A program made the position numbers and the translations under genes. From Mesaphorura yosii (taxonomy: Eukaryota; Arthropoda; Collembola; Poduromorpha; Tullbergiidae), in NCBI GenBank assembly GCA_009869945.1, contig WIXG01000082.1, forward strand, positions 186,001-250,000: a DNA stretch of 64,000 nucleotides, read 5' to 3'. Position 1 is the first letter of the stretch; each line of letters opens with the position of its first letter. Shown one piece after another: positions 8,701 through 46,934 of this stretch. Under the pieces are notes generated by a model. That model did not search any database, had not been told where the DNA came from, and saw only the letters and a list, made by a program, of their open reading frames with translations.

Positions 8701-11700
8701 GCCGGCGACCTATACAATGGACGCATGAGTGGACAGTCATTGCTTCGAGCACATCATGCGCTTATGTCACCTCTCTGAATAATTAATGCAAACTACTTGC
8801 GTAACCTCAGAGTCCTTGGACTTCGTTTATTACTTGTGTAGCACTTGATAATATTTAAGGAGATGGTTTTTATTGAAAAACTTGAGAAAATTGTTTAACT
8901 TTTGCAGTACGCCGTAAATATTAAATGCGCCTTTTAAAGAAAGAGTTAACGAAAAACTTTCCAACGTCACCAGCAGTTTCTTGTATTGTGCATTGTGTCG
9001 CATTTTGTATGTACCACTCAAGCTATTAACTTAAGTGACAACGGCGACTTCTGTCAATTGACCAGTGACATGACATTGCGTGTTGTTTATCCAATTCTTC
9101 TTATTCTTATCGTGTTACCATAAACTGGTATGAGTGTAATTTGTATCGTGACTGGTAATCGAGTAATTGTTAGCCATAATTGAGTTCATAAATCGTTTGT
9201 GCAAAATTTATCGTTACTTGGTCCGTTCAAATCAAGCAGAGGCCTTTGTGAAAGAGAAGACTAGGCGCCTTTTTCACTGCCCCGCGAAAGAAAGGAAGAA
9301 ATTACGCTCATTTCCGCCGTCGTCGTCGATATCTGTGGCCTAATGTGCAGTAATGAGTTTTGTCTTTTGTCTGTCGTGGCTTCAGTCAATAATCCGTTGT
9401 AGTCTCGATCGTGCTCACTGCTGCGTGGTCGCCGTGCCGGAATCAATGAGGAGAATCCGAAAGGAAAATGATTGCATTGCATTTGGCCAAATTGAATGAG
9501 AAAGCACAAAAAACAAGAACATGCGACTGCGACTCGTACTCGACCAACTGCCAACTGCTACTGCAATGCAAGACATCTCGAATGATCTTTTGGCTTTCAA
9601 TGCTCGGCTTCGTTGTGTTGAAAAAAGAAACTCAAATAAAACGCACAAATACGCTTCTGAGCATACGGAACAACTTTGGATACACTCAATGTGAAGGTGA
9701 TTCTCGTTTATCGTGCTGTCTCTGGACTTTTCTCTTGTGCTTGATATCCGAGGAGTGCAAACAGAGGCAAAGGTCTGAAAAACATATTCTCAAGAGTCGA
9801 GACCAGCGCACTAATTGAACTTTGTTCATCATGAAGCGTGAAACGTAACCCTGAGACTATATCATTCCCTTGTTAACGAAACTCTCTTGGCTTGCACCCG
9901 GCGCGTAGTCTGAAACTGTAAATTACTCCACTTCATCATCAAGTGTCTGATGAAGGAAAGTGATAACAAAGTTAATATGTGAACGAAGTGAGGAATTGCA
10001 CTGCAGTTTTCTTTCTTTCTCACTCTGGACCAAAAGTCACACTGAAGTTTTCTTAATGAGCCGCGGCAACCAGAAAACTAAGAAATTATGGAAGGATACT
10101 CACCTCGTAAGGGGTAAAGTCAACTTCTCTTGACACATGTGAAAAATGAAGCACGTACGTAGATTTTGAATTTGCGGCACTCGAAGCCTTTGTGGAACCT
10201 TTCCACGAATGACTCAGGGCGAGCTGAATCGCTGGCGCAATCAGCAGGCAATCGCTGAGCGCCTCAATTGTTGCATCTCGAAGCGGTATTGGATGCAGAA
10301 TTGGTCGATCCCAATCGGTGTATTCGTTCCGCACGATGGAAAATATCTCCTGCTGATGATAGTTGAAGACATTGCGGACGAGCGTACGAAGAATTCTATC
10401 TCTGTGTTCAGATTCGAATCCATGTCGTAACTCATAGTCATTAAGCTCATGAACTCCTTCACTCGTGGTGAAGACGATAACAAGCTGAGCATTATGGAAC
10501 TGGTCATTAATAGCACTCTGCCTGCCCATCGAACTCTGGCCACCAGCACCTTTACTGTTGCTGTTCGCACCAGCAGCACTTGCACCCGTGAAACTCGGTC
10601 GTTCCATGACGAGCCGAGGGTTCGTCAGGAGAATATTGTCGATGTATGGTGCGAACGGGGAGAGAAACCGCGGACTGCTTGGCACAAACTCGAGGAGTTC
10701 GTTGAGGTGTTGTCGGCGAAGACACGGAGCCAAGTCACTCTCGGGATGCGACAGCGGAAGTCGCCCGATGCAGCCAAAGTGGATGGAAGCTTGGAAGGCT
10801 ATTTCTTCTGGATGCCATTGGAGAGCCCACGGAGAGAGCACGGAGCCGCTTATCAGAATGGCACGTTGAAATAAATCTGCAAAAATAAAACAGACGGTAT
10901 GTAAATGAGAAATGAACGATGGACAGAAATTGGACAATTTGAATCTCATCAGCATCAAATTGATGGGCATTAAGTGGAATGGGGCGTGAAAGCATTTATC
11001 ATTTTTCAATCGGGACTGTGACTCAAATGGGCAGACACGGCAGATTCGAAATTGAATCTCTTAAGCGTGTGGTAATATGACACGGCACAATTCGTAGTTT
11101 TACATACGCTTAGCGAGGTGAACCTCGTTTCCTGTTCCGACTGCCAACTTGACTACGAGCCGAGTTTGAAGTTATGACGTTCACTTTATGTGTCACACGC
11201 TACTTACCTTAACAAGGAACGACAGGGAAGGAAATTCGAGTGACAATGATCAATTTCTCGGGAAATTTCATGGAGAGACGCAACAGCAACAGGAGTTTAA
11301 AGGTTGCCGACTCCTGCTTTGAGCGATCAAGGTTTCCATCGTCATCTTGCTCTCTCCATGACTTCGGCGTCTGCTCCATGGTAAACATAGCACAGCACGC
11401 GCACGGCTCGTGGTTCACACTCACTTACTGTACGTACTTTAATAAACTTTCAAGTAGTTGTAGAAAGTAGAAATTTCACCTCTCTCGCATCATCTCCAAT
11501 AAAATGTAAATAACATAAACTTCCAGAATGTCAGAAGTCTGTCAGTATTTTTGACTTCCAACACATTTTCTCGCTCTTGCTCTGCAATCTTCAAGATAAT
11601 GGAATTAAGGTACTCGTCTTCACCTTCTACGACCTCCACGATGAGGTCTGCTTCATGCATTTACATATGCAATGCAACACAAGGCCTTTTTCGAGTACGA

Positions 11701-14700
11701 TGCATTGAACTCTTGATCGTAGTTGAGTAAGCAAATTTTAAGGTACGAAAAATCAAATTGGAAAAAATGTTGTTATTGAATTACCGTTCCGAATCGTGCG
11801 CTCGGCGCTTTACAGCGTACCCGTGTGAAAGAAGATAGAAATAAAGACATCGTGAATGCATGCCGTGAGGATGAGAAAGTGAAGGAATCTCACAGCTGAA
11901 AAAAACCGTTAGCAGAAAAGAATGAATTGATCTTGTTCGGTGAAAAATTTTCTTCACTTTCTTCTTCCTCTTTTCAAGGGAAAGGGTATTGAATGGAATG
12001 AATGTAAACGCGAGCGCGAGTGAATGAGAAGTAGCTCTTCATTCATTTCATTTACAAATTAATATGATCTCTAAACTTGCCAAGAAAGTGAGCCTTTGTG
12101 AACTTTGCATTTTGTCTGGTTTTAAAGGCTTAAACATACAAACCAGTGCCTAATGCGTATTCAGTTTACAGAATTGGTGACTGCGAAAGACATTCGACTG
12201 ATAAATGATTGAGATCACAAGCAGCAGAAGTGTGTCGTAAGAAACAAAATGCTTTCATGATTGCTTCTGGTGAATGATGATTCGCAAAGTGCAAACATCG
12301 AGCTCACGATTTTGATCAACTGATCGAGAGAGCAAGATTGATTTTGTGTAGTGCACAGAGTATGAAAGTGATGCGAGAAAGATTGGGTCGTAATATTCCA
12401 CAGGCGAAATATTCAATAGAAAATGTGCGAAAGAACTTTGAACTCAACTTTTTGGGGTTAAGCAGGGCAAGACTCGATGTGGGGATAAAGTGATAAAAAG
12501 AGATGTGAAAAATAGGATGAAAGTTTATGCACTGATTTTACACTTGACGCCGATCTTTATGCGTGGTCGTGCTGCATCGTCAAGCTCGGTACGCTTCAGC
12601 AGAGTCACTGACTACGCAACTCAAAGGAGACAAGTTGGAAAGTGTGAAAAGGCTAAAGACTCATTTGTCTTCGGCTACTCTTAAGATGTCGCCATTCTTC
12701 GGGTGACATATGTCATTCTCCGTGCTGGGATTTAGGCTTTCATTCCTCTCCTTCCCAGTTTGCCTATTTTCGTCCCATTTGGGACCCACAGACGATTTTT
12801 GCAAGTCTGTGTTTTGAGGGGACCCATCAAGATGAAAAAATATACGCTTCTTCCTCGCTACTAAAATTTCAAGAAAGAAATGCAATGTGAATGGGTAAAG
12901 TTAGAATACGCGCTATAAAATCGATTCCTGTTGACTTTCACCTTGGAAATTCGAGTGCGCTCACTGCTAATTACAAGAATTTGTGAATTCCACTTAAGAA
13001 ATTCTTCAACACTCATCATTGAGCTTTTAACTGTTCCAATTCCATTCCATCGAACAGCGATACAAAAATATAACGCGGTACTGGCAAAAGGGTGCCCTGC
13101 TGCACTAAAAGTACAGCTGAACATGTCATACTTTCATGACTAATGAGCTGCCATTCACATGCGACTTGACTCACACACAGCGCAGCATATGGAGCACGCA
13201 TTTTGATAAATAACAATAGCATGCCTTCTCATGTGATGAAAGTAAGGTGAAATATGTTTTCACAAATGATTTCATTTCTTCCGTAAAAGCAGTCAGTGCG
13301 CGTACTTTGTTCCGGATCTCATGATGAAAGTTTATTTCCTCTGCAGTGCTCTGCAATGTCGTGCAGTGCCTTCGTAGTGCAAATGGTGAAAACCGCAATT
13401 TAGCAGAGAATAAATATGACGGAAAGGGGCCAAAGAGCAGAAGAGGGGAAAGAGCAAACGATAAAAGTGAAAAATCTGAGTAATAGACCTCAAAGGACAA
13501 ATACCTTGCCTCCACTCCTCCACCGTTCCAAATCAACACGGGTAAATTGAAAAGAGAGAAGCATAGAAGCACGACCATTCTGCATAGGCAAAGGCATACA
13601 AACGGGCCAATGCAATGGCGAATAGCACAAGATTCAATCCACATACCATTTGAAATCAAATATATTACAGAGTTAGTATTTTAAGTAGTAATCTGACATA
13701 TGCGACCATAATTTATTGAAAAGCACCCAAGTGCAGAGGAATCTCATAGATTATCATTCCCCGACTTAACCGAAGAAACTGGAGAAAGATTTATTAAGTG
13801 TTATGTGAGTGCACGTACTGGACCAGACCAGCATGTAAATCTTGGTTTTCTTGTTAGGCTGGAGCATGGAGCTGGCGGAAAATTAAATCTTTGCATGCAT
13901 TTTTCAGGCTCGGTCCTTTTATTTCTTTCGCAGTAATAAAGGCGGCTTGGACGAATAAATTCAAATCTCATATAGAAAGACGTCGATAAACACATCTTGG
14001 TATCTTGCACATTCCAATACCTAAATGAAAGAGAGAGGAGGGCAGTTTATGTTCTCTTTCATTCAGAATTCAGAATCTACACGAGTAATAGTGAAATAGA
14101 AAAGGTAACTAAGGATTTAGGAAAAAGTTTCGTGCGTGTCTTTACAAAATCTCCCAGATGAGCTTTCACGCGTCTGTAAAATGCCCGAATTATTTTAAGC
14201 CACCGAGAACCAATATTAACTGTTCATTAGACAGTTCCGTCTTGCTGCATATCAATAAATAAGCCACATTATCAAGATATCGATTATGTCAGATTGTGCA
14301 TCATTTATCACAGTTCAGGATATGCACCTGGGAGCATCCCTCAATTCCTGTGCGTCAAGCCGTACTTGAATTTCAACGTTATATGCATTTCCGGGAATCC
14401 AGAAACCAGCCGCTTTATTTTTACCTTGGATTTTGGCTATACTACCCTGCAACCTGTGCTTGTGCCTGAGTACATACAAACTCAATAACTTTTTCCATCT
14501 CATCATGCGTGAATTGCTGACAGCAACGGAGGCGACGAACGAACGCCGGGCATGAATCATGTTCCAAGCTCCGTGGTTACACCTTGCACTTGCATTATCA
14601 GTTCTTTCCCAGTTTTGCATTTCCTGGACGAAACTGAGCTGGAAGCAGGAGCCGCTGCGAAGAAAAACGAAGGCATTCGTCTTGGTTGCTCTTTCGCTTT

Positions 14701-17700
14701 TTCCATTTACCTTCCACGTTTCCAGTTTTTTCCCTGAATAATCGCACGCGAAACACGAATATTATACATGCTGCCTGCAAACTGTTATCGTGTCTTCTTT
14801 CACTTTATGCGTTCAATGTAATTCTAATTTTGTGGGGATCGATCATAAATGCTCATGCATATTGCTGCTGTTTGTCACGCGCAAGATGATTGTCTTGTGC
14901 CTTTCATGCATCATAAAAGGTATCTCTCGACTTCAATCCAGTGCGGAGAAAGTCATATTATTAAATGTGGGCATTTCAAAAATGTGCGCCCCAGTACAAT
15001 GCAATAGTTCAGCAAGTGGAGGGAAAGCAAAATGACTGAAGTTGGGCCACTTTTTCGTGTTCCAACCCAAGTGGCGGAATGTGTTACATTTTGTCTCAAG
15101 ATAAGAGTAAGAAAGAGATCAAGATAGACGCAGAAAGACCATGCTGCCCTGATTATTATGATGAAGAAGACAGAACACAGGAATCTGGGACGAAACCTGC
15201 ACGGAATTTTAAATTTGACACGTAGCGAATACCAACACAGCCCGAAATCTCAACGCAGCAGTAAAAAGTGTGACACAATCAGCGACGAGCGACGAACAAT
15301 AAAGAAACGAGTACAACTCTTTCACTTTACTCTCTTTTCGTCCTCTCCGACGTGCCAGACAAATGAATGCGTGCAAATGATAATGCGATTTTTCGGATTT
15401 GCACAACGAGGCCGAAATTGTGTTAAAGAAAAAGAAACACAAGAGGCAGTAAGTTGGAGGTGGCGAAGAAGGTGTATAAATTTGCCGTGGAGGACAAGTT
15501 GATAAGAGTTAATGAAGATGAATGTGATCAGAGTCGTATCGTGAAAAAGAGCTTGTGCTTGTTGAGAATACAGATCACCAACTCAAAGTGGATACAATAC
15601 AATACAAAAATACGGTTCCAGTAAGTTTGCTTCAGTATGCGAGTACTCACCTTTGGCTATTTGCGCAACCAGAAGAAGATTAGCTATCACAGCTCCTGTT
15701 TTATACCCCAAAATGGTGATACGATTTCTATCGCCACCGAATGCCTCGCCATTCTCTCGCACCCAGTGCAAGGCGGCAATCACGTCGAGCAGGCCAAAGT
15801 TACCCTTTTGATTACTCGTCTTCAGGAAACCTGAGAATGAAGCAATAAATATTAGCATAGTGACTTCCGCATAAAGAAGGGGCTTACCATTCAAATCAAT
15901 TTGTGGCAAGATAAGGAACGAGATGAGAAAGGGAAAAGTATTCTGAAGTAAAGTCGTATAGTCAGGTGTCATTACTTCGGGCATTAGCACACAAATCCCT
16001 TTTTTATTGAAATATTCGGCACGCTGCACATCCAACGCAAGGCTTTGCATTTTGCATCGCAATTGACGGTGCAGAACGTTAGCATTATAACGGCTGGCCA
16101 CCTTTGAAGATTGCAGCACACAGTAAATTGTTATACGTGCAACGCAGAGCAACAATCCGGGATTAAGCCCGACGCGAGGAAAGTACATACGATTACAGCA
16201 AGAGGAAATCGCTGAGAAGAAAGTTTCCTCTTTTTCCGTGAACACTCTTCTGATAAACTGATTTCCTTCCCTGATTGCATCTTGAAAAAGTAATTCAATT
16301 AACTACTACACAACAATATTCAGAAAAAAAGTAGCGGTGTAAGGAAAGTAAATTGCCAATGCGAGACTGCACAATTCACCATTTAGCCCAAGACAATAAT
16401 GCAATTCGATATTGGATCACTTTATTAGTCACTTCTTCCATTGCAGCGCATAACTTACAATATACAAGCTTTTTTGTCCAAAATTTGCAACTTTTTCCTA
16501 AACATTCGAATACGAACGCTTTTGTACGAATATTTACTGTCATGTTTTGTAATATTTGTCAAATAAAATGTAATCCTTTCCTCTTAAGGCACAATTGAGG
16601 GAATTTATACTCCTGTATTTCATGCACTAATAAAGAATAATGTGCGCTGGGCCTATGACACAAGGCCGCCCATTGTATTCAATTCGGCTGTAATTTTACT
16701 GGGTCAGACATGGCAGATGGATAAAAATCCCTGAAGTTTACTTGCCAATAGAGAATTGAGGCTTGCCTTGGCCATAATTTAGGAATTGGCTTATTCAGCA
16801 GGGCAGGCCGAAAGTTCTAAAAATTCAATTCTGCATTCAGTCATTGTCTTGGTCCTCCACACGCCGCAGTTGCCATTGCCCTTCAGCATGGCGGGACTTG
16901 AAGGAAGACTAATAAGGTAAGTTTTCTTTCATTATTACTATTATTATTCTTGGAAGTGCTCCACGTCTGTCTGCGTCCGTCTACTTTTGGCGCTCCTGCC
17001 GCCTTGCCATCAGAGTGGGCAGAAGGCGAGGAGTGCCGTGAGTGGGAGCGGCGAGTTAAACTGACATATAATGTTATTTCTTTGGGAATTGAATCAAGTA
17101 AAATGAAATAAAATCAGACGTGGAGAGACGGAAAGAAGGATTGGCCAAGTGAGAGTACGTGAAGAGGAAAAATTCGGTTGTTGTTGTAACAGTAATCCGT
17201 ATATAACCCATGGTCTCGGCAGTGCCGCCGCTGCAGTGTGCAGTGTGCGAGGGTAAGCAAGCATGAAGGGTTTGGTGAAAGTGGGGCTCAATGAGCTCTC
17301 TGTAATAAATTCAATTTGATGGACCATTTTTCACTCAAATGGTCACCGATGGTGCTTCTCTCCTGCTAGATTTTCCCTGTTTCTTCATACTAATACTGTG
17401 AAAGCCTCTTAGTAGAGAGTGAGTGCTTATGTGCAAAATTTAACATGTCTGCGCCGGACTCGGCCCTTTTTGTAGGTATTAAGTAGTAACTTTCATATTC
17501 ACTGACGGAAAGTGACAAGCCTGGAAACATTGCACGATCGAATGAGCGCCGTAACATGATTCAGTGCTGTAATATCAACTAATGCATAAAGAGTGCAACC
17601 GGCAGGAACTCCCACCTGGCATTCAAATAGTATTTCTATAATTGAAATTCTAAAGTACGAGCATCATGTGTCAAGCATCAAGAATTTGAGGCGCATATTT

Positions 17701-20700
17701 GAGTTACTTCTAGACAACAAGAATCTCCGTGCCGCAGTCTCTTCTATGGTTTCTGTAAAGGTTCGCTCGGTTTTGGTTGACGCTGGTTGGAAGCAACAAT
17801 AATCCGAGCAGCCGTTTTGCTTTTACTAGAATTCCGACATCCACTTTACTTAATCTGGTGCAAATACATTTTATTGGATGAAAACTTTGTTCGAGCGAGT
17901 TGGACAAAAGTTGAGCCCCCGAACGAACTGCTGCACAATAACATCCAACAACGATAAACATGATACTTACAGGCGTTACTAACTTTTCTTTCCACACTTA
18001 CTTTACGATCTGAGATTTGCTTGGATGGCCAAGGCGGGCGAAATTAAACAGGGAATCCATGCATGCTCTCAGTCCTGGTTCGGTCCCATTAATGCGGCAA
18101 AGATTTTATGGCAACTTTTTCTGCTGTAACTTCTTTTCCTGACCTGGCTACTTTGCTCCGAACTCATAATAACTGTCAAGAGCTCCTTTCTTGTACGGTT
18201 TCCTGTTCGCCCTGACGGTTGCCCTCTCGAAGACCATTTCCTAGTCTGTACTTGCCGCGCTTCTTTAACCATGGCGAATACTCTTTATCGGTAATTTATG
18301 GCCTGCAGGAAACGAGCGCAGGAAAAGCTAAGGATTTTCACTTCCCGTGCTCGATAACAAGCCGGGCAGTGCAGGAAAGGATTTTATTTATGTTTATTGT
18401 TCTAATTTGCTTGCGCAAGTCCTTACCTAGAACACCTAATCGGTAATTTAATGTGACCACGATATGATTTCCAAGGCTGGCGAGAATTCCTCCATCAAAC
18501 TCATTCCCACTTCCCCACTCCCAAGATTCTCCGTGAATTACAAAGATGATAGCGAATTGGCCAGGACGAATTTGCTCTCCTGAAATCAAGAACAATCATG
18601 TCGTTCATTTTAGTTTAACATTTTAGTATGAAGTTGAGAGCGCCGTAGGATTATTAAAGAGCTTGCGTCAAGAGTCGAGCTTACGCTTAGCCGAGTGGCC
18701 TGTCAATGTGTCTCCGTCATGCTATTTTATATTTTATGAATGGTAACTTGATCGTTTTCTCCAATCCACCGGGCAAACAGTGAGAGCAAATATTTGTCGA
18801 TAAGTTGTGTTTAAATATTTGCCTTTACTCAAAGTCAAAACCCAAACTCTCCACAGCTCGATCATTGTTTTAGACAAATTCGAGTCGTTTTAGCTGCCAG
18901 GAAACTTTGCAATATATTTTTCAAGTTTGACAGATCAGGCTCCAGTACACGTAACTCCCGCACGAGCTGTCATACGCCTTCATGCAATCAAGCTTGTCAA
19001 AACGTCCTCCTTCTTGGCAAAAATTTACGCCTAGATTAATACAGCCCAGCGTACCAAACTTGAGATTGAACTCCAAGCCATGCGAGTGCGAACGAGTGCA
19101 ACGTGTTTACAGTACACGCGTTTGCATATAAATTAGTTTAAACACAGTTCTCCTCAATAAAACCAACGCCAATCGCCAATGCAAGCACAAGCACCACAGG
19201 TCAGATGGTAAGAGTACGGTTTAGGGAGTTCTACGAACATCTCTTGAAGTTATTCAAAAACCAAACCGCGGAGTGGCAGTGGGAGAGCAAGGCAAATGTC
19301 GAAGTCAGTGGATTCATTTTTGTTTGCTTACTTGTAACATGATTTAATAAATTTGATTTTATGATGAAATTCAATTACTCTCCCTACGTCAAATATGCAA
19401 AATGAGTTTCTTGGTTTTGTTTCCACAAACCAAAGGAAGTGCCAATGCCTATTCCATCTGTTTGCATAAAAACACTTGGCTTCCAACTATGCAAAATTAA
19501 TATCGACATCAAATCGACTATTGACAACAGCTGTTGAAATTCGTTGTGTCGAACACAAACGACTGTAACCATTAAGTCGGAAATTGACTCAGTAAAAAGG
19601 AACGTGACGTGGCTTGGCAATAATAAAGACATTGTCACACGATCTTTTATCACTTTAATAGCGCACTCACATCTCATTGTTTTGCGACACTTCATTTATC
19701 CAATTTCTTTCCTCGGTCTTAGCCATAAGCATAGAGCGTTTTGGCTAAACAATTTAGGCGTCTTTTCCTTCTCTCTTACCATGGCCAGCTGAGGAATTAG
19801 TCTTGCTTTCACTCTCTTCGATGAATGAGTGATAAATGAAACGAGAAAAGAATTGTGAGATGAACCAACAACTTACTTTCTCATCTTTTCTCTTTCTTTC
19901 TCCTCTTGCTGTAGTTGCTTCGAGATTTGCCTCAGATAAAGGAAGCTTTTCTTAAGGGGTGGCTGAACATCTTTTGACAAGATTTGAGTAATCAGAAAGG
20001 GAAGCGAGCACAAACAGAAATGGAAAGAGTAAAAGAACATCAAGCGACCGACCGGCGAGGATCAGCACAACACACGTTGTGCCTGTGTAAGCTTATATGC
20101 AGCCCAGAGCTACATGATGAAAAGGAATAAGAAACACAACAAAGAATCAATTTTCTAAATATAGTCCTTTCCATGAGACAGAGACATGGATTGTCGTGAG
20201 CGTTTGTTGTGCCTGTGCTACATAGATCACAAGAACGTTTCAAAGTGACTCTGAAATAATTGTCGTAATTAAATTCTTGGTTGTACAGCTATCAGCTCAG
20301 TCAAAAGTTTCGCACAAACACAACGGGATTTCAAAGTGGGCAGTAATTCCATCGACCAACACAAACACGGAAGCTGTACTTTGGAATTTATGATTAAAAT
20401 TCGCATTGGAACGAGACGACACAAGGTACAGCGCAAAATGGAGGAGGACGAATATACTTTTTCCAGAATTTCGCTTCTGAATCCTACCATTTCTATTTTA
20501 TAAATGCAGAAACTAGAAGTACACTAAACTGCTTCTTGTCCCGTTTGTCATCTCCGTCATTCGCCTTTGTTATCTTTGCACAATGCCTCCGCGCACTTGC
20601 TCACAGGAGCGTGTTCCGCTGTCGTATTTCACAGTGCTCCAATTTAAAACGAGACGTTACTGTAACATTGCATTGCAGCAAGCAGCTAGTTTTTATTTTT

Positions 20701-23191
20701 CTTTATGTTACGGTTCACGGATAAAAATAGAGATTGTCATACAAATCCTCTTTTCAATTCATTTGTGCTGTGCGGAGAAAGATGAACGAGAGCGCTGCTT
20801 CAGGGAGAAGTGAGTGAAAGCTCTAATTCACACTTATACTAGAAACAGAAAAGAAGAGGACGGAAAGGGACAGACGAGAAGTGGAAAATAGACTGGAAAT
20901 GGGAAGGAATTATTTGTTGCGAAGCACAAAAATAACTGGAGAATTCGATGGACATGGATTATTCCGTTCTCCAAGCCTATATTGCTTGTCTGAGGAATTA
21001 TCGTCAGCTTGCTCAGGTGATGACCTTCGAAATTGGAGGCTGTGCCTCCAATTAAAGGGTAAATTGCAAAAAGGGAAGGTACAAAATTGCAGCATTCCAA
21101 AGGCAGCATAGCAATACAAACTGAAAAGAACAAAGAGAATGAATGCACAAAGAAACTGAAATGTTTTGATAAAATATAAATGAAACTTTTAAGCATAAAG
21201 TAGCAGTGAAAGTCGCGGTTCTGTTGTCTGTTTTTCTATTTGTGTCATCCAAATATTCTAGAGGACATTGCCAAAGGCCTTGTAATTTAAACTAATTTAT
21301 CTTTTAGATCTCCAGTATTCAGTACCCAAAAGTCCTTTGCCAACTTACAGTCCACATGCTCTGTTTAATTATTAATTAAGAATCAAAATATGTGTCATAA
21401 AGTTGTCAGTCATGTTTACCAATTTCGCAATCCTACCTTTTCTGGGAAGACTTACATATAGCTACAAATAATCGACGTATCCGTTGACTTACCGGTTGGG
21501 ACGGTTGGCACGTAGAAATTCAAGTACAGACAGTCTTCGCTTTGGTTAGCTACGAATGGGATCAGTTTCTGGAGCAGGAGATATCTCTGGATCGTCATGG
21601 AATGCAGCGCTCGCGTTCGATTCGAGATGTCCGGGAACTTCTGCGGACAAGCTGGTGGAAGAGTGACAGCCAACCGCGTTCCCGGGCCCCAAGGAAGTGG
21701 CGCATGCGGGGGCATAAATCTGTATCCATTTGTTGGCGGAGAAGCGTAAGGAATCCCCAGATACGCCGAAATAGGATCTGCGAACCAAGACCAAGAATTA
21801 AAAAGGAGGAACTTTCCACCCAATAAAATTGGTGAGACACGACCGGCGATATTAAAAGTTGTGGTGCATTCAGTTATGAAATTTTATGATGAAAGTATGA
21901 TTTTGTAATGTGAAATAGTTTTACATCAGATAACCTTATTTCTTTCAATTCACAACCGCATCGGCATACTTTTTCCTTTTCCCCAAGTTTCCATTTCCAA
22001 AACGGTGAAGTTTCTGACAAATATATTTTATTAGTGAAATACAACGACCAAACTTTATTTTACGTCTTCACTCTTCGCTCAAGCTGTTGTCTCCGCCGGT
22101 GGCTGTACTGTGAAACTGGAATTTACAATTTATAGACTCGACACCCGAAGATGAATGCTAGTTCGATCTGATCCATTCTTTCCCAAGAATTTCAATTGTC
22201 ACCGCATCAGAAACTCAAACTTGAGAATAATTAGGTTTCAGCTCAAATTATAAAGAGATGGATTCTGTTATTGAACTCTGCTATTCGTGTTTCTGTTTAA
22301 AAATTGGGCAACAAAGGAATTTCGCAAGGCCTGGACCATTCTGCGTGAATACAACTTTTTTGTTTTGCAAAGTTTTCTTTTTGTTTCCAAATAAATGGTT
22401 CTGCAGCAGCGGTAACTTTAAACTCTGTAATATTAATGCTCATCCATCATCATAAAGGATGGGTCCGTTGCGCCCGACTCACGACCAGCACAAAGCGCAG
22501 TGGAGGTTGAATGCAGGGAGCAGAAACTAAACGAGCGAATGCGAACGTAGAACAAAAAGTTTTTGTACTCCAAAGTTTTTTCACAAATGCGAAATATTTT
22601 TATGGATTGCGCTGAGCATTTTACATTTTTGACTTTCTCCTTTGTTGGTTCCAGGAAAATGTTTTGCACTTGAGCGAAATGCGAATGCCAGTCACATCAG
22701 TCATTTGATTATGAACGTTCGCAGCACATTGGACGAATGAATGCTCAGAAAAACGAAAGCATGTTTCATTTTGAATGACCTTGTTCCCGTCCCAACTTAC
22801 CTAAATGTCTGGTTGAGCTTGAGCTGAATTGAACCCTCAACCCGCGCAGTGGACCGTATTTTGTGTTGACGGTGTGCGTAGTCACATGATGTGACGTTGA
22901 CGAGGGCGGAGGGGGTTGTGATGCTAAGCTGCTTGTGAATACGTTCAAGATCACCAGTAAAAAAATTAACCGAGCCCTCAGCTTGAGGAAGTTCACATTT
23001 GTCCAGTGTTTAGATACACCGTTACATTGGCACACACAGCATTGTTTCATGTGCTGCAGCAGGACTGCCCATTCCACGGCTGCAAATTGGGATTGGTAAT
23101 TATGTGGAGTGTGGTCAGGTTCCTGGCAGGAACTGGCGGTGGTGGTAATGTCGGTAGTTGAGCGACAACGTGAGCAACTCCATGAGACCAT
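2448..23191 (-). CDS. Nlg: Neuroligin (11 coding exons, about 1,215 aa)
   Basis: This is a postsynaptic adhesion receptor of the carboxylesterase-like superfamily; family members bind neurexins across the synaptic cleft. Exons (minus): 23191-22801, 21777-21493, 18579-18427, 15830-15651, 10876-10104, 7011-6827, 6344-6007, 5935-5740, 5498-5198, 3725-3170 and 2737-2448. All phases match and the sum is 3,648 nt. The order of parts is: signal peptide (core about residues 73-90), start of the esterase-like domain (VNTKYGPLRG), SEDCLYLN with the conserved Cys, IHGESWEWGSGN, the FGGD..RITILGYKTG elbow near 318-322, a membrane helix near 873-897, a basic stop-transfer CHRKR, and a tail of about 310 aa ending in EISV. 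The usual esterase nucleophile Ser is Lys (about residue 320), so no hydrolase activity is expected, as in other neuroligins. The tail has an acidic patch, an Ala run and His/Gln runs. The start could also be Met48 at 23050. Upstream non-coding exons are likely but not seen. Confidence 0.93.
3170..3725 (-). CDS. Nlg: Neuroligin exon 10: cytoplasmic low-complexity tail
   Basis: The acceptor TTTCAAG at 3726 places codons in phase 0 with the preceding AAG donor. The product is rich in Ser, Gln, His and Asn, with an acidic YSDDDENERPPSPF patch, a run of seven or more Ala, and His/Gln tracts. No gephyrin-type motif was recognised. The donor is G|GTATGT, phase 1. Confidence 0.85.
5198..5498 (-). 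CDS. Nlg: Neuroligin exon 9: transmembrane segment
   Basis: It encodes an acidic and Ser/His stretch, then DYTTALTVTVTVGVCLILLN and further hydrophobic residues up to CHRKR. This is the single-pass helix with a basic cytosolic flank. The TTALTVTV run resembles the STELSVTIAVGAS start of vertebrate neuroligin helices. The donor is AAG|GTACGC, phase 0. Confidence 0.92.
5740..5935 (-). CDS. Nlg: Neuroligin exon 8: juxtamembrane stalk
   Basis: It encodes a Ser/Pro/Gly-rich stalk with no fold motif, as expected between the esterase-like domain and the membrane. The acceptor is TTCAG and the donor AA|GTAAGT, phase 2. It keeps the reading frame from exon 7 to the membrane exon. Confidence 0.85.
6007..6344 (-). 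CDS. Nlg: Neuroligin exon 7 with Asn-Gly repeat
   Basis: It encodes the end of the esterase-like domain: VYLNAGIKPKLRSHYRGHKLALWLNLIPQ, cut here into recognisable pieces YLNAGIKP and HYRGHKLALWL. Upstream of these is an Asn-Gly run made by a 12-base repeat. The acceptor is TTACAG, the donor G|GTAAAA, phase 1. Confidence 0.92.
6234..6264 (-). repeat. 12-base coding minisatellite (Asn-Gly run)
   Basis: About two and a half copies of a CCGTTGCCATTC-type unit lie inside neuroligin exon 7 and produce NGNGNGNGNG. Unit length is a multiple of three, so copy changes keep the frame. Confidence 0.75.
6827..7011 (-). CDS. Nlg: Neuroligin exon 6
   Basis: It encodes EGDVVPYVMGLPV, equivalent to the HGDEVPYVFGIP segment that carries the third triad position in esterases, then ANFSKQDAVVSE and a helix ending in NFVRNG. 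Here the segment reads LEGDVVPY, so a His is absent at the HGDE position. The acceptor is CACAG and the donor GG|GTAATT, phase 2. Confidence 0.92.
8335..8349. repeat. (GGCA)n tetranucleotide microsatellite
   Basis: GGCAGGCAGGCAGGA is a short perfect tetranucleotide tract inside a neuroligin intron. Confidence 0.7.
10104..10876 (-). CDS. Nlg: Neuroligin exon 5: central ectodomain
   Basis: This is the largest exon at 773 nt. It opens with LFQRAILISGSVLSPWAL, equivalent to the LFQKAI..SG motif after the elbow, and later has EYTDWDRP and the strand STYVLHFSHVS. A Gly/Ala/Ser-rich insertion (about GASAAGANSNSKGAGG) interrupts the fold and looks lineage-specific. The donor is GAG|GTGAGT, phase 0. 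Confidence 0.92.
15651..15830 (-). CDS. Nlg: Neuroligin exon 4: nucleophile elbow (Ser replaced by Lys)
   Basis: It encodes KGNFGLLDVIAALHWV, FGGDRNRITILG and GYKTG. The esterase consensus at the elbow is G-x-S-x-G. Here the third position is Lys, whereas vertebrate neuroligins have Gly. The acceptor is CTCAG and the donor G|GTGAGT, symmetric phase 1. Confidence 0.92.
18427..18579 (-). CDS. Nlg: Neuroligin exon 3
   Basis: It encodes IIFVIHGESWEWGSGNEFDG and VVTLNYRLGVLG, matching the oxyanion-hole strand and turn of the cholinesterase-like fold. The acceptor is TTTCAG and the donor G|GTAAGG, with phase 1 on both sides. Confidence 0.92.
21493..21777 (-). CDS. Nlg: Neuroligin exon 2
   Basis: It encodes the esterase-fold segment with YLGIPYASPP, PPACPQKFP and SEDCLYLNFYVP, including Cys residues that form the conserved first disulphide loop of the family. 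A CAG acceptor and a G|GTAAGT donor give phase 1 at both ends, so the exon is symmetric. Confidence 0.92.
22801..23191 (-). CDS. Nlg: Neuroligin exon 1: signal peptide and domain start
   Basis: It encodes a hydrophobic core (ARLIFLLVILNVFTSSLAS) followed by a Pro-rich linker and VNTKYGPLRG, the usual beginning of a neuroligin ectodomain. The donor is GTAAGT (complement of 22795-22800), phase 1. The start is either Met1 at 23191 or Met48 at 23050. The latter places the hydrophobic core closer to the N-terminus and is a good alternative. Confidence 0.85.
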
Positions 23192-41688: not shown

Positions 41689-42619
41689 GTTTGTACAAGC
41701 GCAAAGTTGATTTGAGGTCAACTGTGTCCAATCAATCTCTCAAAACTGAGCTAAACTATTAGGGCTTTTGGAACTGTTTTGAACTCTTGCCACTCTGAAT
41801 ACAAAATATTAAGATTATTTATGTTGTTTCTTGCCTTGCTCTTGTTTGCAGAGTCTGGGCTGGAATGCGAACAAACTGGCAGAAAGTGCGACTTATATGC
41901 AAATGAGAACAAAAATTATTGTCAGTGGTCATGGCCATGACTTAGTGTGCCGCAATGTTGCTGAGCTGATTTTATAGGATTCGCTTCAGTATCAACCGAT
42001 AAACGAACACTGTGCATGATTAACTGCATGTGGTCACGTATCTCACGTAACACCATGTGTAAATACGGTGTTTACACACTTAACTCCCGTAGCTATTTTC
42101 GATAAATTGAGACGGTGTTAAATATGTATTATGTAACTTCAGCATTTTAGAATAAAGTAGGCGAACTGGTAAACAACGTGCAATGTCGTTTGTACGTACA
42201 GGAGTACTGCACCTGAGGCAGGATTGTCTGCGCCGCACATTCAATGGATAGATACCAATAAAATTGTCAGATTTTGGCTAGAAATTAGATAATACAACCA
42301 ATTTATCCATCCATTGTTTATTTACCCAGTCACAACTATTAGGCTATAACATATGACCACATAATGAGATAATGATTCATAATAATAAATTCGGCCGTAT
42401 AAATTATTCAGACAGGGTGGAGTTGCTGAAAACCTGTTGTACATAAAAGCATATCAGACTCATGATCTCATGATGGTTTCAAGTAAGAAATGAGATTAGA
42501 ACTGAGAAACACACAGCTTGGTGAAGCAAAATTTGACTTCATCGCACTCCTTGTGCGACTGGTTATATGGGCAGCTCTGTTCCGAAATTAAAGTCATATT
42601 TCGAGCCTACCAGAAAAAA
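41689..42619. promoter_or_regulatory. Divergent intergenic region between METTL7-like and SelL
   Basis: This 931-bp stretch lies between two start codons that face away from each other, so promoters of both genes and any 5' UTR must lie here or in unseen upstream exons. It is AT-rich. I did not identify a clear TATA box or a named response element. Confidence 0.45.
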
Positions 42620-43129
42620 ATGGAGTACACGGCTGCCCTCAAAAACTTTGCCAAGAACGTTTCGACATTTCTTTCCGAGACTGAACCGGCATTTGATAAC
42701 ACTACCATGGAAGAATTTGTGGCGAGCTATGTCAAACCAGGAAAATTTTATCCACTCTTCGGATATTACACGGAGCTGCTGAACGCATTTGGTACAAGCG
42801 TCGGACAAGAGTTCGAATCAAGACTGAAGGAGGAATTTGCATGTAATGCAAGGAACGAAGAATTCATGGGTGCGGCCGAAGAATACAACCAAGCGGAGGC
42901 AAACTATTTGAAGTTCGTTGGGAAATTGGATTCAAAATTCGGTTCACTCAAATCTGGTAATGTTCAGGACTTACGGCTCGAATGTTTGGAAACGGAAGAA
43001 AAAGTGAGTTTACAAGAAATATTTCAACGAAAGGCTGCGTCGGGTGCCAAGTTCACATGGATGGTCTTTCTTCGGCATCTTGCTTGACCCGCGTGACGAA
43101 TCAATTTGACACACCTTGCGTCAGCCAAT
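42620..43129 (+). CDS. SelL: SelL exon 1, with both Sec codons
   Basis: It encodes the helical N-terminal region (starting MEYTAALKNF), then FTWMVFLRHLA, TGA, Pro-Ala, TGA, Arg and INLTHLASAN. The donor AAT|GTACGC is moderate; the 62-bp intron that follows is needed to restore the frame, because 62 is not a multiple of three. Confidence 0.85.
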
Positions 43130-43648
43130 GTACGCTCCTCAATTAGAGCTAGTGCATATGAATACGTTATTTCAATTGCACTGCATTTCAGGAAAACTTG
43201 GTCGCTGCAGGGTGTCAAGTGGCGCTTGTATCGTTCAGTCCAAAAGACGCGCTGAAGGAGTTTAAAAAGAGGGCAGCCGGTGAGTTCGACTGCTTCTGGG
43301 ACCCGACATGCTTAGTGTACAATCAGTTTGGAATGGGTCACTCGCTATCAAAAGTGAGACGGAGAAAAATGTTGGAATTTATGCTTGTTGTTGGTCAGTG
43401 CCTTACATGTTGACATTTTGTAGATTTTTGGTCTGAAGACCATTTATTGGTTTGTGGAGAACATCCCAACAGGAAAAGTGCACATGGAACGGGAAGGGCA
43501 CGTGCCGGACGATGATGTTCTTATGCTTGGCGGTGACATCATCTTCAACAATGCAACTGGAGAAATAGTGTACAGATTTCCACAAGAAAGTGCGATTGCA
43601 CGACCAGATATCAAGTCCGTATTGAATATCCTGAAGGAAAACGCTTAA
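42620..43648 (+). CDS. SelL: Selenoprotein L (SelL), Sec-x-x-Sec redox protein (3 exons, 298 aa)
   Basis: This is a peroxiredoxin-like thioredoxin-fold protein in which both redox Cys are replaced by selenocysteine. Exons: 42620-43129, 43192-43353 and 43424-43648, all phase 0. The frame contains TGA at 43085-43087 (Sec156) and at 43094-43096 (Sec159), within FLRHLA-Sec-PA-Sec-R. Related AhpC/TSA-like proteins have FLRHFGCPFCR at this spot, so both TGAs sit exactly on the CxxC. Codons after the TGAs keep matching the family: LVAAGCQVALVSF, FDCFWDPTCLVYNQFGMG, FGLKTIYW and DVLMLGGDIIFN. SelL is the known family with a UxxU diselenide motif, reported mainly from aquatic organisms. A type II SECIS lies in the 3' UTR. 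The N-terminal 150 residues are helical and charged. The ATG at 42620 has A at -3. A conventional gene finder would stop at 43087. Confidence 0.9.
43085..43087 (+). other. SelL: UGA recoded as selenocysteine (Sec156)
   Basis: TGA occupies the first Cys position of the redox motif, straight after FLRHLA. The reading frame continues with family-conserved residues after it. Confidence 0.88.
43094..43096 (+). other. SelL: UGA recoded as selenocysteine (Sec159)
   Basis: This second TGA lies three codons after the first, separated by CCC GCG (Pro-Ala), and is followed by CGA (Arg). It matches the second Cys of CPxCR and completes a Sec-x-x-Sec pair. Confidence 0.88.
43192..43353 (+). CDS. SelL: SelL exon 2
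   Basis: The acceptor TTTCAG leads into ENLVAAGCQVALVSFSP, then FKKRAAGEFDCFWDPT and YNQFGMGHSLSK. The donor AAA|GTGAGA is strong, phase 0. This matches the strand-helix-strand after the redox motif in AhpC/TSA-like proteins. Confidence 0.92.
43424..43648 (+). CDS. SelL: SelL exon 3 and stop
   Basis: After acceptor TTTTGTAG it encodes IFGLKTIYWFVENIP, GHVPDDDVLMLGGDIIFNN, TGEIVYRF and a final helix, ending at TAA 43646-43648. The true stop is TAA, so it cannot be confused with the two Sec codons. Confidence 0.92.
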   Translation: MFGLKTIYWFVENIPTGKVHMEREGHVPDDDVLMLGGDIIFNNATGEIVYRFPQESAIARPDIKSVLNILKENA

Positions 43649-43690
43649 ATTGTGCTTACCTGATACAGTTGAATCCTTGCTCTGCTTTCG

Positions 43691-43767
43691 TTTCTTAAAT
43701 ATCATGACGAGTCCTGGCGAAATTGTTAAAGCAAGGCCATGACTTTGATTTGCTTGATTTTAAGGTG
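43691..43767 (+). promoter_or_regulatory. SelL: SECIS element, type II, in SelL 3' UTR
   Basis: It lies 43 bases after the SelL stop. The quartet is ATGA at 43704-43707 opposite TGAT at 43746-43749, giving the tandem G.A pairs and a U.U. Helix II pairs GAGTC with GACTT (one G.U) and TGGC with GCCA, with one C.U mismatch between. Twelve bases after the quartet come the unpaired AA (43720-43721). A small extra helix TTG/CAA (43723-43725 with 43732-43734) closes the apical loop, which makes it type II. Helix I pairs CTTAAA (43694-43699) with TTTAAG (43759-43764). In eukaryotes SBP2 binds the quartet and directs Sec insertion at UGA. Spacing, quartet and AA all fit the consensus. Confidence 0.87.
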
Positions 43768-44153
43768 AAAGTCGGCTTGGGCTCAACTCAAATAAGCATG
43801 ACATAGGAAGGACAGCACAAGCATTATAAGTAGTCAATTAGTAATTCATTTGAAGGAATTGTGACTTGGCTAAATTGATCAGATCGTAGTGAGCTAAATT
43901 GTTCAATTCAATTCGATTAAAATTGTTGAGCATTAGGATGGTGTGGTGATAAATAGTGTTGCATGACAGCTAAATCGGAATTCATTCCACTAAAAGCTCA
44001 TTTACATCGCGGAGCAACGACTGCTTTCCTTTGTCACGAATCCGGGAAATAGAACAATCTCAGCCCACTAAAACACGGACTGATGACTTTGATTTCTGTT
44101 CAGTAACTGTTTCATGCTCGAAGTGTTCACGTCGTAGCCTGCAATCCGGCGTC

Positions 44154-44413
44154 ATGCTTGTCAATTTTGCGAACGAATACTTTCCCAAACTCCATGCGCA
44201 TATCTTGCCATCATTTTCCCATCGAAATGCCGTCGACTCAACCTTTCACAGTGATAGCATAAATCAAAATGGTGAAGAAGGCCTCCGCACTGATGACCAA
44301 GAAAACATTTGCTGGATTGAACCAAAGGATTCGATTTCAAGCGATTTTTGTCAAAACACGAGTTTACATGGACTCAAATATATCTCTCAGCCTAAACGCC
44401 ATTTGAGTGAAAG
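44154..44413 (+). CDS. DEG/ENaC exon 1: cytosolic N-terminus with HG motif
   Basis: It encodes about 86 residues ending TSLHGLKYISQPKRHLSE. The donor is AG|GTAATT, phase 2. The frame is open from 43974, so the exon may begin earlier without an in-frame ATG. Confidence 0.75.
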
Positions 44414-46934
44414 GTAATTTAATCTGAAACACCAGTTCTTTCTTCAGTTCATTTTTGAGAAACATGTGCGTTCTGCAGGCTATTTTGGTTGATAATGTTC
44501 ACCATCGGATCATCGGTAGCAGTGTACCTGATTTCGGACGTTTGGAAGAAATATAGCGAGTCGCCGATCATTGTCTCTTTCGACCCATTTGAAACAAGCG
44601 TTGACAACCTTCCGTTCCCTGCAATCACCATCTGCAACAACAACAGGATTCTCAAGTCGAAAGCTAAAGTTTTTGGTGACGAGTAAGTTAAAGGCTGACA
44701 ATTTTCGCTACGCTCAGAGTTAAGTCTTTAAGCCTCTTCTGTTTCACGCATGTTGATCCAAGTTGAAAGAAAATGATGACGATAAAGATGCATTGATGAA
44801 CTATTACTATCTGACAGCAGTCTGCCTTGCATCTAAAAGTTTCTCCAACAAATTCGAGTTTTCTTTGTTCGAAGTGAACGAGACATTGGCGGAGAAAGCG
44901 TACCACGAATTTTTAGGTGAAAACCGAATGGTGGACATACAATCGTTTCTCAGAGCTGTAAGCGAAAGAAAGCTGAACTGAGTCATTCTTCTTAGACGAC
45001 GTCAATGATCATGCTAAATATCCACAGAATTCACAGACATGCTTGGATCTGATTCGATTGTGCCTGTTTAAGGACGAAAACATTAACTGCGCGGACATAT
45101 TTAATCCTATCGTCACGGATTTTGGCAAATGTTGCACATTTAATATGATTCCGAACTTGCTACGAGATTTCAAGTAAAATGTTTCAAGATTTGAGCATTT
45201 TAATAGAATGATTGGTTAAAATTATACTCACGGCTTGACCAATTTGCATTCAGCAACACATTTCAGGTGTCCGATCAAGAATCGGCTGATTGGAACCAGG
45301 CAGAGCTGGAAAACAGTGGAATACTGGCAGATGGAGAGGAACGAACAAAGTATCCGCACAGACAAACCAGAGCAGGCAAATCTTATGGCTTATCAATTTT
45401 GTTGGATCCTGATTTGGACGAATATTTTTGCACCAACTCGGACTCTTACGGGTTTAAGGTTAGAAGCAGCACACGCGAAGCTTTAAATCATACTTATTGT
45501 CATCTTCTTCTTATTCGTTTGCTTTGCTATGAAGCTATCAATTCACTCTTCTGCGGAAATTCCAAATTCAATTGATTTTGGGTACGGGATTCAGCCGAAT
45601 TCCGAAATAGCAGTGGTTGTGCGGCCCGGAATTACAAAGGCAGATCCATCTGTCTATCGATATTCTTTGGTAAGCATTATTGCCTGCTTGACGCCTTGAC
45701 AAGCTTAAAGCATCTTATAAATTATGACACGTAGAGTAAGCGTCAGTGCTATTTAGACAACGAATACAATCTGACGTACTACAAATACTACACCGTATCA
45801 AATTGTATTGACGAGTGTGTCACAGAAGACGTTTACCAAAAGTGTGATTGCGTAAGATTTTACATGCCACGTAAGGACAGAAACTTTCAAAGAATTTATA
45901 ATCACATCACAGCTAATTGCCTTGACCATAGGGAATTTGTATATTTTTTTTTACATTTCAGGAAACTTCAGTCAGAGGCTTTGCCAGCCCACCCAGTTCA
46001 ACTGTATGGAAGAGGCAAAAGGTTAGCAAGCTTCCCCGCCATCGCATTACACAATTATATTTAAGAACACTAATGCCAATTCAAATTATGCCCGATATGG
46101 CAGAGAATTTCTCCCATTCTGCTGGCTTGAAAAGGAATTGTCCCCATTGCTTGTCACTTTGTTCCGAGATTAGCTTCACAACACAAATCTCGTCTTCTCC
46201 ACTGGCTATGACGAACCGAACCAAAAATATTTGGACCAGTTCGAGGAAAAATGTCTCATGGTAAGGAGAACTGCCATTTCAATTGGTTGACCGTGCCTTG
46301 TCCTGATTTATTATTTATCCTAATCACATCCGTCAGGGAGACCCACAAAGTTTCAATCGTGCATATTTACTACGACCAAGATTCAACCTATGCCCGCCTT
46401 CGAAAAGAGCTGTTTGGATTCACCGATTTAGTTGGTAATTAGCAAAACAACTTTCAAAGGGTGTACATTCACCTCAAATTGTATTACTACGATTTATAAT
46501 TCAAAGCGAATACTGGTGGTCTAATGGGCCTCTGCTTGGGCTTCTCCGCATTGTCTGGAGTTGAAGTAATTTACTTTTTGACTCTGCGCAATTTATGGGA
46601 ACGAAAGCGAAAACAATCCATTAAGTCGAGAGTGGCACAGCAGTTAATTCACAACAGAAAAAGAGGTCGTCAATTGAGCAAGTTCCAAAGTGCAATGAAA
46701 TCCATTAGTCGCCTACGTGGACATGGCAAAGCGTATCACGACGGCTTGGAAGGCTTGCGTGACAATGCCTTCATGGTCAGACCCAGCAGCAAAATGTTAA
46801 ATACTATCCAGCAGTTGCAGTACACACCGACTCACACTAATGATTTGTCCGTCATAGATTTATTGTCTACTAAAAATGTCTGTGATGCTAACAATTACTA
46901 CAACAGCAATGTTTGGAAGTCGGAATTTGATTAA
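44154..46934 (+). CDS. DEG/ENaC (pickpocket-like) sodium channel, 11 exons, about 669 aa
   Basis: This is a trimeric, typically amiloride-sensitive cation channel subunit of the plasma membrane. Exons: 44154-44413, 44479-44675, 44770-44957, 45028-45173, 45254-45458, 45535-45669, 45735-45870, 45962-46021, 46104-46260, 46337-46434 and 46507-46934. The total is 2,010 nt. Family landmarks in order are: the HG gating motif in SLHGLKYI; TM1 (LFWLIMFTIGSSVAVYLI); FPAITICNNNR; TDFGKCCTFN; Cys-rich extracellular exons with NCIDECV, KCDCVRFYMP and CPHCLSLCSEI; and TM2 with the G-x-S filter in GLCLGFSALSGVEVIYFLTLR (here GFS). A cytoplasmic tail of about 110 aa follows. Two points are uncertain. The start Met is the first in-frame ATG after an upstream stop, so a further 5' exon is possible. 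The exon 2/3 junction could also be 44668/44763. Subfamily and physiological role (mechanical, acid, osmotic or peptide gating) cannot be read from sequence. Confidence 0.92.
44479..44675 (+). CDS. DEG/ENaC exon 2: TM1 and FPAITICN
   Basis: The acceptor CTGCAG is followed by LFWLIMFTIGSSVAVYLI and, later, VDNLPFPAITICNNNR. The 3' end is ambiguous: G|GTGACG (44675) or AAA|GTTTTT (44668) keep the frame, while the stronger GTAAGT at 44683 does not. Confidence 0.8.
44770..44957 (+). CDS. DEG/ENaC exon 3
   Basis: It encodes an acidic ENDDDKDALMNYYYL and a helical stretch ending DIQSFLRA. The donor GCT|GTAAGC is phase 0. The start may instead be 44763 after CCAAG. Confidence 0.7.
45028..45173 (+). 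CDS. DEG/ENaC exon 4: CC.FN finger region
   Basis: It encodes TCLDLIRLCLF, NCADIFNPIVTDFGKCCTFN and NLLRDF. This matches the family's C...C.F...C...F....TD.G.CY.FN. The acceptor is CCACAG and the donor AA|GTAAAA, phase 2. Confidence 0.9.
45254..45458 (+). CDS. DEG/ENaC exon 5
   Basis: The acceptor CATTCAG at 45253, not the CAG at 45266, keeps the frame (NNTFQVSDQ). It encodes RAGKSYGLSILLDPDLDEYF, close to the family's GL.L.L......Y, ending YGFK. The donor is AAG|GTTAGA. Confidence 0.88.
45535..45669 (+). CDS. DEG/ENaC exon 6
   Basis: It encodes LSIHSSAEIPNSIDFGYGI and a beta-rich stretch, equivalent to GF.V.IH....P in the family. The acceptor is GAAG after a pyrimidine run, the donor TTG|GTAAGC, phase 0. 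Confidence 0.88.
45735..45870 (+). CDS. DEG/ENaC exon 7: cysteine-rich
   Basis: It encodes SKRQCYLDNEYNLTYY, then NCIDECVTED and KCDCVRFYMP, the thumb-domain cysteine pattern of the family. The donor is C|GTAAGG, phase 1. Confidence 0.9.
45962..46021 (+). CDS. DEG/ENaC exon 8: 60-base micro-exon
   Basis: Acceptor TTTCAG after a long T run; it encodes NFSQRLCQPTQFNCMEEAK with two of the conserved Cys. It is phase 1 on both ends and necessary to join exons 7 and 9 in frame. Confidence 0.82.
46104..46260 (+). CDS. DEG/ENaC exon 9: C.CLP-type motif
   Basis: It encodes NCPHCLSLCSEISFTTQISS, equivalent to the family's C.CLP.C.E..Y....S. The donor is TG|GTAAGG, phase 2. Confidence 0.88.
46337..46434 (+). 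CDS. DEG/ENaC exon 10
   Basis: It encodes VSIVHIYYDQDSTYARLRKE, the wrist-region strand before TM2. The acceptor is CGTCAG and the donor G|GTAATT, phase 1. Confidence 0.88.
46507..46934 (+). CDS. DEG/ENaC exon 11: TM2, selectivity filter and C-terminal tail
   Basis: It encodes NTGGLMGLCLGFSALSGVE and VIYFLTLR, then a basic, Gln/Ser-rich tail to TAA at 46932-46934. G-F-S fits the G-x-S selectivity filter. Confidence 0.92.

Follow-up and report, generated by a model that had tools for sequence, protein, structure and literature searches.

The 64,000-nt stretch of the Mesaphorura yosii genome analyzed here (the window) contains a three-exon gene that very probably encodes an animal selenoprotein L (SelL). 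Both in-frame UGA codons would be read as selenocysteine (Sec) through one SECIS element, and the product would act as a diselenide peroxiredoxin-like (Prx-like) oxidoreductase or peroxidase; Sec insertion, the diselenide, the substrate and the partner are parts of this reading that we infer. The gene is a genuine SelL of a kind that is already known, and the less usual aspect is a small set of related copies in the same genome, including a decayed one and one that has lost both Sec codons. Several lines of evidence agree with the family assignment that a sequence-only reading of the window had put forward, namely a Prx-like domain, UxxU at the CxxC site, a SECIS element, Sec machinery in the genome, and a place in the tree beside proteins deposited under the name selenoprotein L and not beside the PRXL2B/SelU-like genes of this genome.

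Gene structure, predicted fold and the SECIS element

The frame around the TGA pair reads FLRHLA-TGA-PA-TGA-RINLTHLASAN. The two TGAs of this frame, the 62-bp intron and the placement of U at residues 156 and 159, all proposed by the sequence-only reading, were confirmed in the joined 298-codon frame (Table 1), and three diverged loci likewise retain the TGA pair. The pair comprises the only in-frame stops ahead of the TAA, and the other two frames of the joined sequence contain 11 and 10 stops. Two random stops among 298 codons would hit exactly both redox sites with P = 2.3e-5. The segment 43085-43096, whose removal by splicing had been named as a possible objection, is 12 nt long, a small fraction of the 60-77 bp of the introns in the gene models. 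Among the SelL-like copies found elsewhere in the assembly, C82b, C23, and C1082 have a counterpart of intron 1 in the same place or close to it, and C1062 has none; a counterpart of intron 2 occurs at the matching site in C82b, C1062, and C23 and is absent from the C1082 model. The paralogues can be aligned with the window gene from near Met1.

Table 1. Features of the SelL gene in the window (positions 1 to 64,000) and SelL-like copies elsewhere in the assembly.
Feature	Location	Strand	Remarks
SelL gene, three exons	42620-43648	+	298 residues and stop
Exon 1	42620-43129	+	start codon, N-terminal helical region, start of Prx-like domain, UxxU
N-terminal extension, residues 1-107	42620-42940	+	predicted five-helix bundle (AlphaFold2)
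TGA, Sec156	43085-43087	+	first redox residue; same-site TGA in 3 other loci
TGA, Sec159	43094-43096	+	second redox residue; same-site TGA in 3 other loci
Intron 1	43130-43191	+	62 bp, GT-AG, phase 0
Exon 2	43192-43353	+	Prx-like domain; AhpC-TSA_2 match covers residues 166-279
Intron 2	43354-43423	+	70 bp, GT-AG, phase 0
Exon 3	43424-43648	+	TAA stop at 43646-43648
Predicted SECIS element	43694-43764	+	Rfam RF00031, shuffles, covariation with 3 paralogous elements
ATTAAA, possible polyadenylation signal	43916-43921	+	pattern match only, downstream of the SECIS
C82b	contig of the window gene, about 109 kb away	opposite	FVRHLS-TGA-PP-TGA-Q; 52% protein identity to the window gene
C1062			FLRFLA-TGA-QP-TGA-Y; 36% protein identity to the window gene; SECIS by own scorer
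C1082			YLRYFK-TGA-PP-TGA-H; 22% protein identity to the window gene; SECIS by own scorer
C95, decayed UxxU copy	G000:C95:214551-214841	-	shifted frame, TGA-LP-TGA, in-frame TAA
C23, Trp/Cys paralogue	G000:C23:89632-90401	-	TGG and TGT at the two Sec sites

When Cys was put in place of the TGAs, the protein matched Pfam PF00578 (AhpC-TSA) over residues 127-222 (38 bits, cut-off 26) and PF13911 (AhpC-TSA_2) with 37.2 bits (cut-off 27), and the TGA pair aligned with the CxxC of the family. An AlphaFold2 model of 42620-43084 (mean pLDDT 77.8) contained helices at residues 2-26, 30-37, 44-56, 62-75, and 80-107. The model of a fish homologue (pLDDT 89.9), whose fold was matched to peroxiredoxins, is helical in its N-terminal region as well. 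The 50 structural matches listed for the fish model all lie within residues 120-305, and the helical N-terminal region is therefore covered by none of them. We know of no role assigned to this region of SelL, which is now delimited.

The predicted SECIS element, of which the sequence-only reading made no mention, begins 45 nt beyond the TAA stop and contains ATGA at 43704-43707, an apical AAA 12 nt later (43720-43722), and TGAT at 43746-43749. In a scan of 42500-45000 it matched RF00031 (SECIS_1) with 21.3 bits (E = 0.69 over 4227 families), under the gathering score of 35. At the gathering threshold, Rfam detected no family in the whole window, and it found no SECIS beside C82b, C1062, or C1082. 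A scorer of our own searched the first 300 nt behind each stop for an ATGA-N12/13-AA...TGA hairpin and compared each result with 300 shuffles. It placed a hairpin at positions 47-65 behind the stop in all four TGA-x-x-TGA genes, with 1 (window gene), 0, 3, and 0 of the 300 shuffles being as good or better. Behind C23, C95, and the FG-TGA-LFC gene of C56 the same scorer found no hairpin; the hairpin behind a C56 Cys gene was weak (10/300 shuffles as good; one of two C56 Cys genes scored).

Covariation was apparent among the four elements. RNAalifold gave 12 pairs, and in eight of them one or more of the sequences carry compensatory changes on both sides. When the Rfam-derived structure was applied to these four sequences, the only ones behind the covariation, 88.5% of 52 cells were paired and 8 of 13 pairs were changed on both sides; none of 500 shuffles was as high, and sliding the structure gave at most 51.9% paired. 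A covariance model built from the four elements and run on 21 sources recovered all four, the C211 locus (L015; 31 bits), and a weak match in the window at 12264-12330, whose 16.6 bits (E = 0.34) are at chance level. It detected nothing in C23, C95, or C56, nor in the SelS and GPx loci having an Rfam SECIS; since the model misses elements that Rfam finds, its reach is narrow and the lack of a match counts for little. The window carries one strong match to the SECIS model, located in the predicted 3' UTR, which would fit the single SECIS of SelL.

Related copies, database relatives, and family placement

Copies were sought in the assembly (G000; 93 Mb, 1127 contigs), in which a PF13911 search gave 9 matches and a search with the window protein gave 12. 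The N-terminal region is present in all five non-broken copies. The decayed copy C95 lies on a contig of 230 kb and contains an additional TGA behind the second Sec codon. C23, on a contig of 421 kb, was modelled as three exons that join into an open frame of 340 residues, and no SECIS was found in the 939 nt behind its stop; the lack of TGAs in this copy thus goes together with the lack of a detected SECIS. C1062 and C1082 are located on contigs of 11 kb each, whose GC and tetranucleotide make-up is unlike the rest of the assembly and which may be foreign or belong to a second organism in the assembly. Their unsure origin does not weaken their worth as comparative evidence.

We consider the chances about even that SelL is here a multigene family with birth and death, consisting of two to four UxxU genes, a decayed copy, and the intact-looking gene C23, whose Sec pair would have been replaced by Trp and Cys and which has no detected SECIS. 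If this is true, Trp at the first redox site of C23 would point to a protein that once formed a diselenide and now works without Sec and in a non-peroxidatic way. The copies offer a natural test of what follows the loss of the Sec pair and the SECIS.

A profile of three copies retrieved six proteins (P0001-P0006). P0001-P0004 are short fragments from metagenomes. They begin 4, 8, or 21 residues past the second Sec site and continue without interruption through both intron sites (P0002 through the second site only); their starts would fit ORF callers beginning after the TGA on spliced transcripts. P0006 has CPHC and is without the N-terminal extension. The comparison with SelL and peroxiredoxin-like proteins that the sequence-only reading had proposed yielded full-length relatives named selenoprotein L: a wider profile (best 8000 candidates scored) gave 95 proteins, of which at least six carry that name, and the named proteins among the matches listed are from fishes. 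Among P0005-P0100 (n = 96), C..C was found at the two sites in 88, the site was missing in 7, and S..H occurred in 1; because the database or tools may write Sec as Cys, C..C is no proof of Cys genes. The expectation that homologues keep Cys or Sec at both positions was borne out in nearly all covering rows, which have Cys or TGA there, with the Trp/Cys paralogue and the Ser/His fragment as exceptions.

The N-terminal extension of about 150 residues, which the sequence-only reading had thought worth comparing with known SelL, is indeed present in this copy, but it is not special to it, as at least 144 residues precede the motif in 74 of the 89 database relatives that have a residue at the first site. 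The relatives deposited under the name selenoprotein L are full-length, and the extension is therefore normal for the family.

In a tree of 25 chosen rows, 9 of the 22 inner branches were well supported. The window gene grouped with P0001 (88/57, weak) and C82b with P0002 (98/93), and all four were joined at 100/98. These pairings suggest that the split between the window gene and C82b may predate the split from the animals behind P0001 and P0002. C1082, C23, and P0006 formed long branches with unsure places, and the extension-less P0006 fell inside the SelL-like rows. The SelL-like rows and three C56 genes that resemble PRXL2B (Prostamide/prostaglandin F synthase) or SelU were split at 100/100. 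Identity of the window gene with SelU or PRXL2B was rejected, since its motif is FLRHLAUPAUR and not of the FRRFGCxxC type and since the tree separates it from the genome's own PRXL2B-like clade. One of the three clustered C56 genes itself contains FLRRFG-TGA-LFC (UxxC; G000:C56:112888-113287), and a search of the 1.4 kb behind its stop gave no convincing SECIS.

Selenocysteine decoding in the genome

The sequence-only reading had made its interpretation depend on Sec machinery, naming SBP2, EFsec, and tRNA-Sec. The latter two were present, together with SepSecS, PSTK, and SPS2, and SBP2 was not found. tRNA-Sec was identified at C32 (74.6 bits, with a TCA anticodon; the remaining three matches were tRNA-Ser), SepSecS at C190 (above the cut-off), EFsec domain IV at C108 (64.3 bits, above the cut-off), SPS2 at C589 (active-site TGA in ELKG-TGA-GCKVP; 103 bits for the best exon vs. 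a cut-off of 125), and PSTK at C5 (128.5 bits vs. a cut-off of 382). The scores of SPS2 and PSTK below the NCBIfam cut-offs are as expected for exon-wise matching and are not proof. SBP2 was not recognized among seven matches to PF01248 (L7Ae) in five genes, which we take to be ribosomal or snoRNP; the L7Ae domain of SBP2 is divergent.

Other predicted selenoproteins were detected. Four GPx loci were found, with TGA at the catalytic site in C426 and C141 and Cys in the other two. C141 contained tandem SECIS-like matches at 2013-2079 (35.2 bits, above the gathering score) and 2164-2232 (26.3 bits), and no SECIS was found beside C426. A SelS-like gene at C322 ends in GG-TGA-G and has a SECIS of 35 bits, equal to the gathering score. 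Two TrxR-like genes end in GC-TGA-G (C36, Sec) and GCCG (C616, Cys). The presence of the machinery and of other TGA-containing selenoproteins indicates that decoding of UGA as Sec is in ordinary use here. SelW-like exons with SGA-TGA-GYGPRF were also observed at C211, accompanied by a SECIS match of 22.8 bits with Rfam and 31 bits with the SelL SECIS model.

Alternative readings, proposed function, and comparison with known SelL

Ka and Ks were calculated between the window gene and C82b over 296 codons, with TGA treated as sense. Ka was 0.34 and Ks 2.33 before the first TGA, and 0.36 and 1.54 after the second TGA; the resulting ratios (about 0.15 and 0.23) are rough, as synonymous sites are close to saturation. 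Between the window gene and C1062, Ka was 0.70 before and 0.66 after the TGAs, with Ks saturated before and 2.9 after. Constraint is thus about equal on the regions before and after the TGAs, and both TGAs are unchanged despite near-saturated synonymous sites.

These values bear on the possibility that the TGAs simply terminate translation and that a CxxC peroxiredoxin-like gene is decaying into a pseudogene at this locus. Such decay has precedent in this genome, since the frame of the relative C95 is shifted and this copy also contains an additional TGA and an in-frame TAA; however, the sole in-frame stops of the window gene are the two TGAs at the redox sites, Ka is much lower than Ks before as well as after them, the SECIS covaries, and the same TGA pair occurs in three other loci, all of which makes a pseudogene very improbable. 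Another reading is that the gene mainly or only yields a 155-residue N-terminal product ending at the first UGA, with termination serving as a selenium-dependent switch. The N-terminal part is under purifying selection of its own and was modelled as a separate helical bundle, and selenoprotein mRNAs usually show some termination at UGA, but the about equal conservation of the region behind the TGAs and the conservation of the SECIS leave very little credence for a dedicated short product. Readthrough of UGA as Trp, Cys, or Arg without selenium would agree with the TGG (Trp) and TGT (Cys) that C23 has at these sites, yet its probability is almost negligible in a genome with tRNA-Sec(TCA) and with TGA at the Sec sites of two GPx, SPS2, and TrxR; moreover, C23, which is without TGAs, is also without a detected SECIS.

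In the preferred SelL reading, Sec-tRNA(Sec) and EFsec would decode both UGAs under the direction of the one SECIS hairpin in the predicted 3' UTR. In the predicted protein, a helical bundle at the N-terminus precedes a thioredoxin fold of the peroxiredoxin-like type, and the models suggest that Sec156 and Sec159 are located where the first long helix of this fold begins. Judging from family knowledge and this anatomy, the Sec pair would cycle between selenols and a diselenide, and a reversible Sec156/Sec159 diselenide would make the protein most likely a thiol/selenol oxidoreductase or peroxidase. SelL has been described as forming a diselenide bond and as being found in aquatic organisms, and diselenides as having very low redox potentials (PMC2397514).

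The window gene resembles the SelL (SELENOL) of fishes and aquatic invertebrates in its Prx-like domain, in its place in the tree, and in an N-terminal region, which measures about 150-170 residues in most database relatives; two Sec residues located two residues apart and one SECIS for both have been described for SelL (PMC3316567). It differs in sequence, the identity to the fish relative P0005 being about 23%. SelL is recorded from fishes, a tunicate, a sponge, a placozoan, a cnidarian, an annelid, and amphioxus (PMC3316567; PMC3473315). Of the six invertebrate genomes in one survey, five are listed with a single SelL each and Lottia with none (PMC3473315, Table 1). Unlike these, the present assembly harbors two UxxU genes on one long contig, decayed and Trp/Cys copies, and two further UxxU genes on contigs of unsure origin. 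No multi-copy SelL was found in the limited set of literature searched. A prokaryotic Prx-like family with UxxC or UxxU, similar to the window protein in this respect, has also been described (PMC13188914). Searches by tblastn with two short peptide patterns per scan found no relative in genome_contigs or viral_contigs; scans limited to these patterns may overlook distant relatives. Fewer than 1% of vertebrate SELENOL genes (together with SELENOE and SELENOJ) are described as well annotated in Ensembl (PMC12822975). As diselenide proteins are rare and SelL genes poorly annotated, the gene model and its SECIS provide a well-supported animal case.

Among the 20 of 49 long reading frames of the window that were scanned, carboxylesterase exons were identified at 10089-21883 on the minus strand, and an exon of an amiloride-sensitive sodium channel (ASC) was located downstream of the SelL gene at 46500-46931 on the plus strand.
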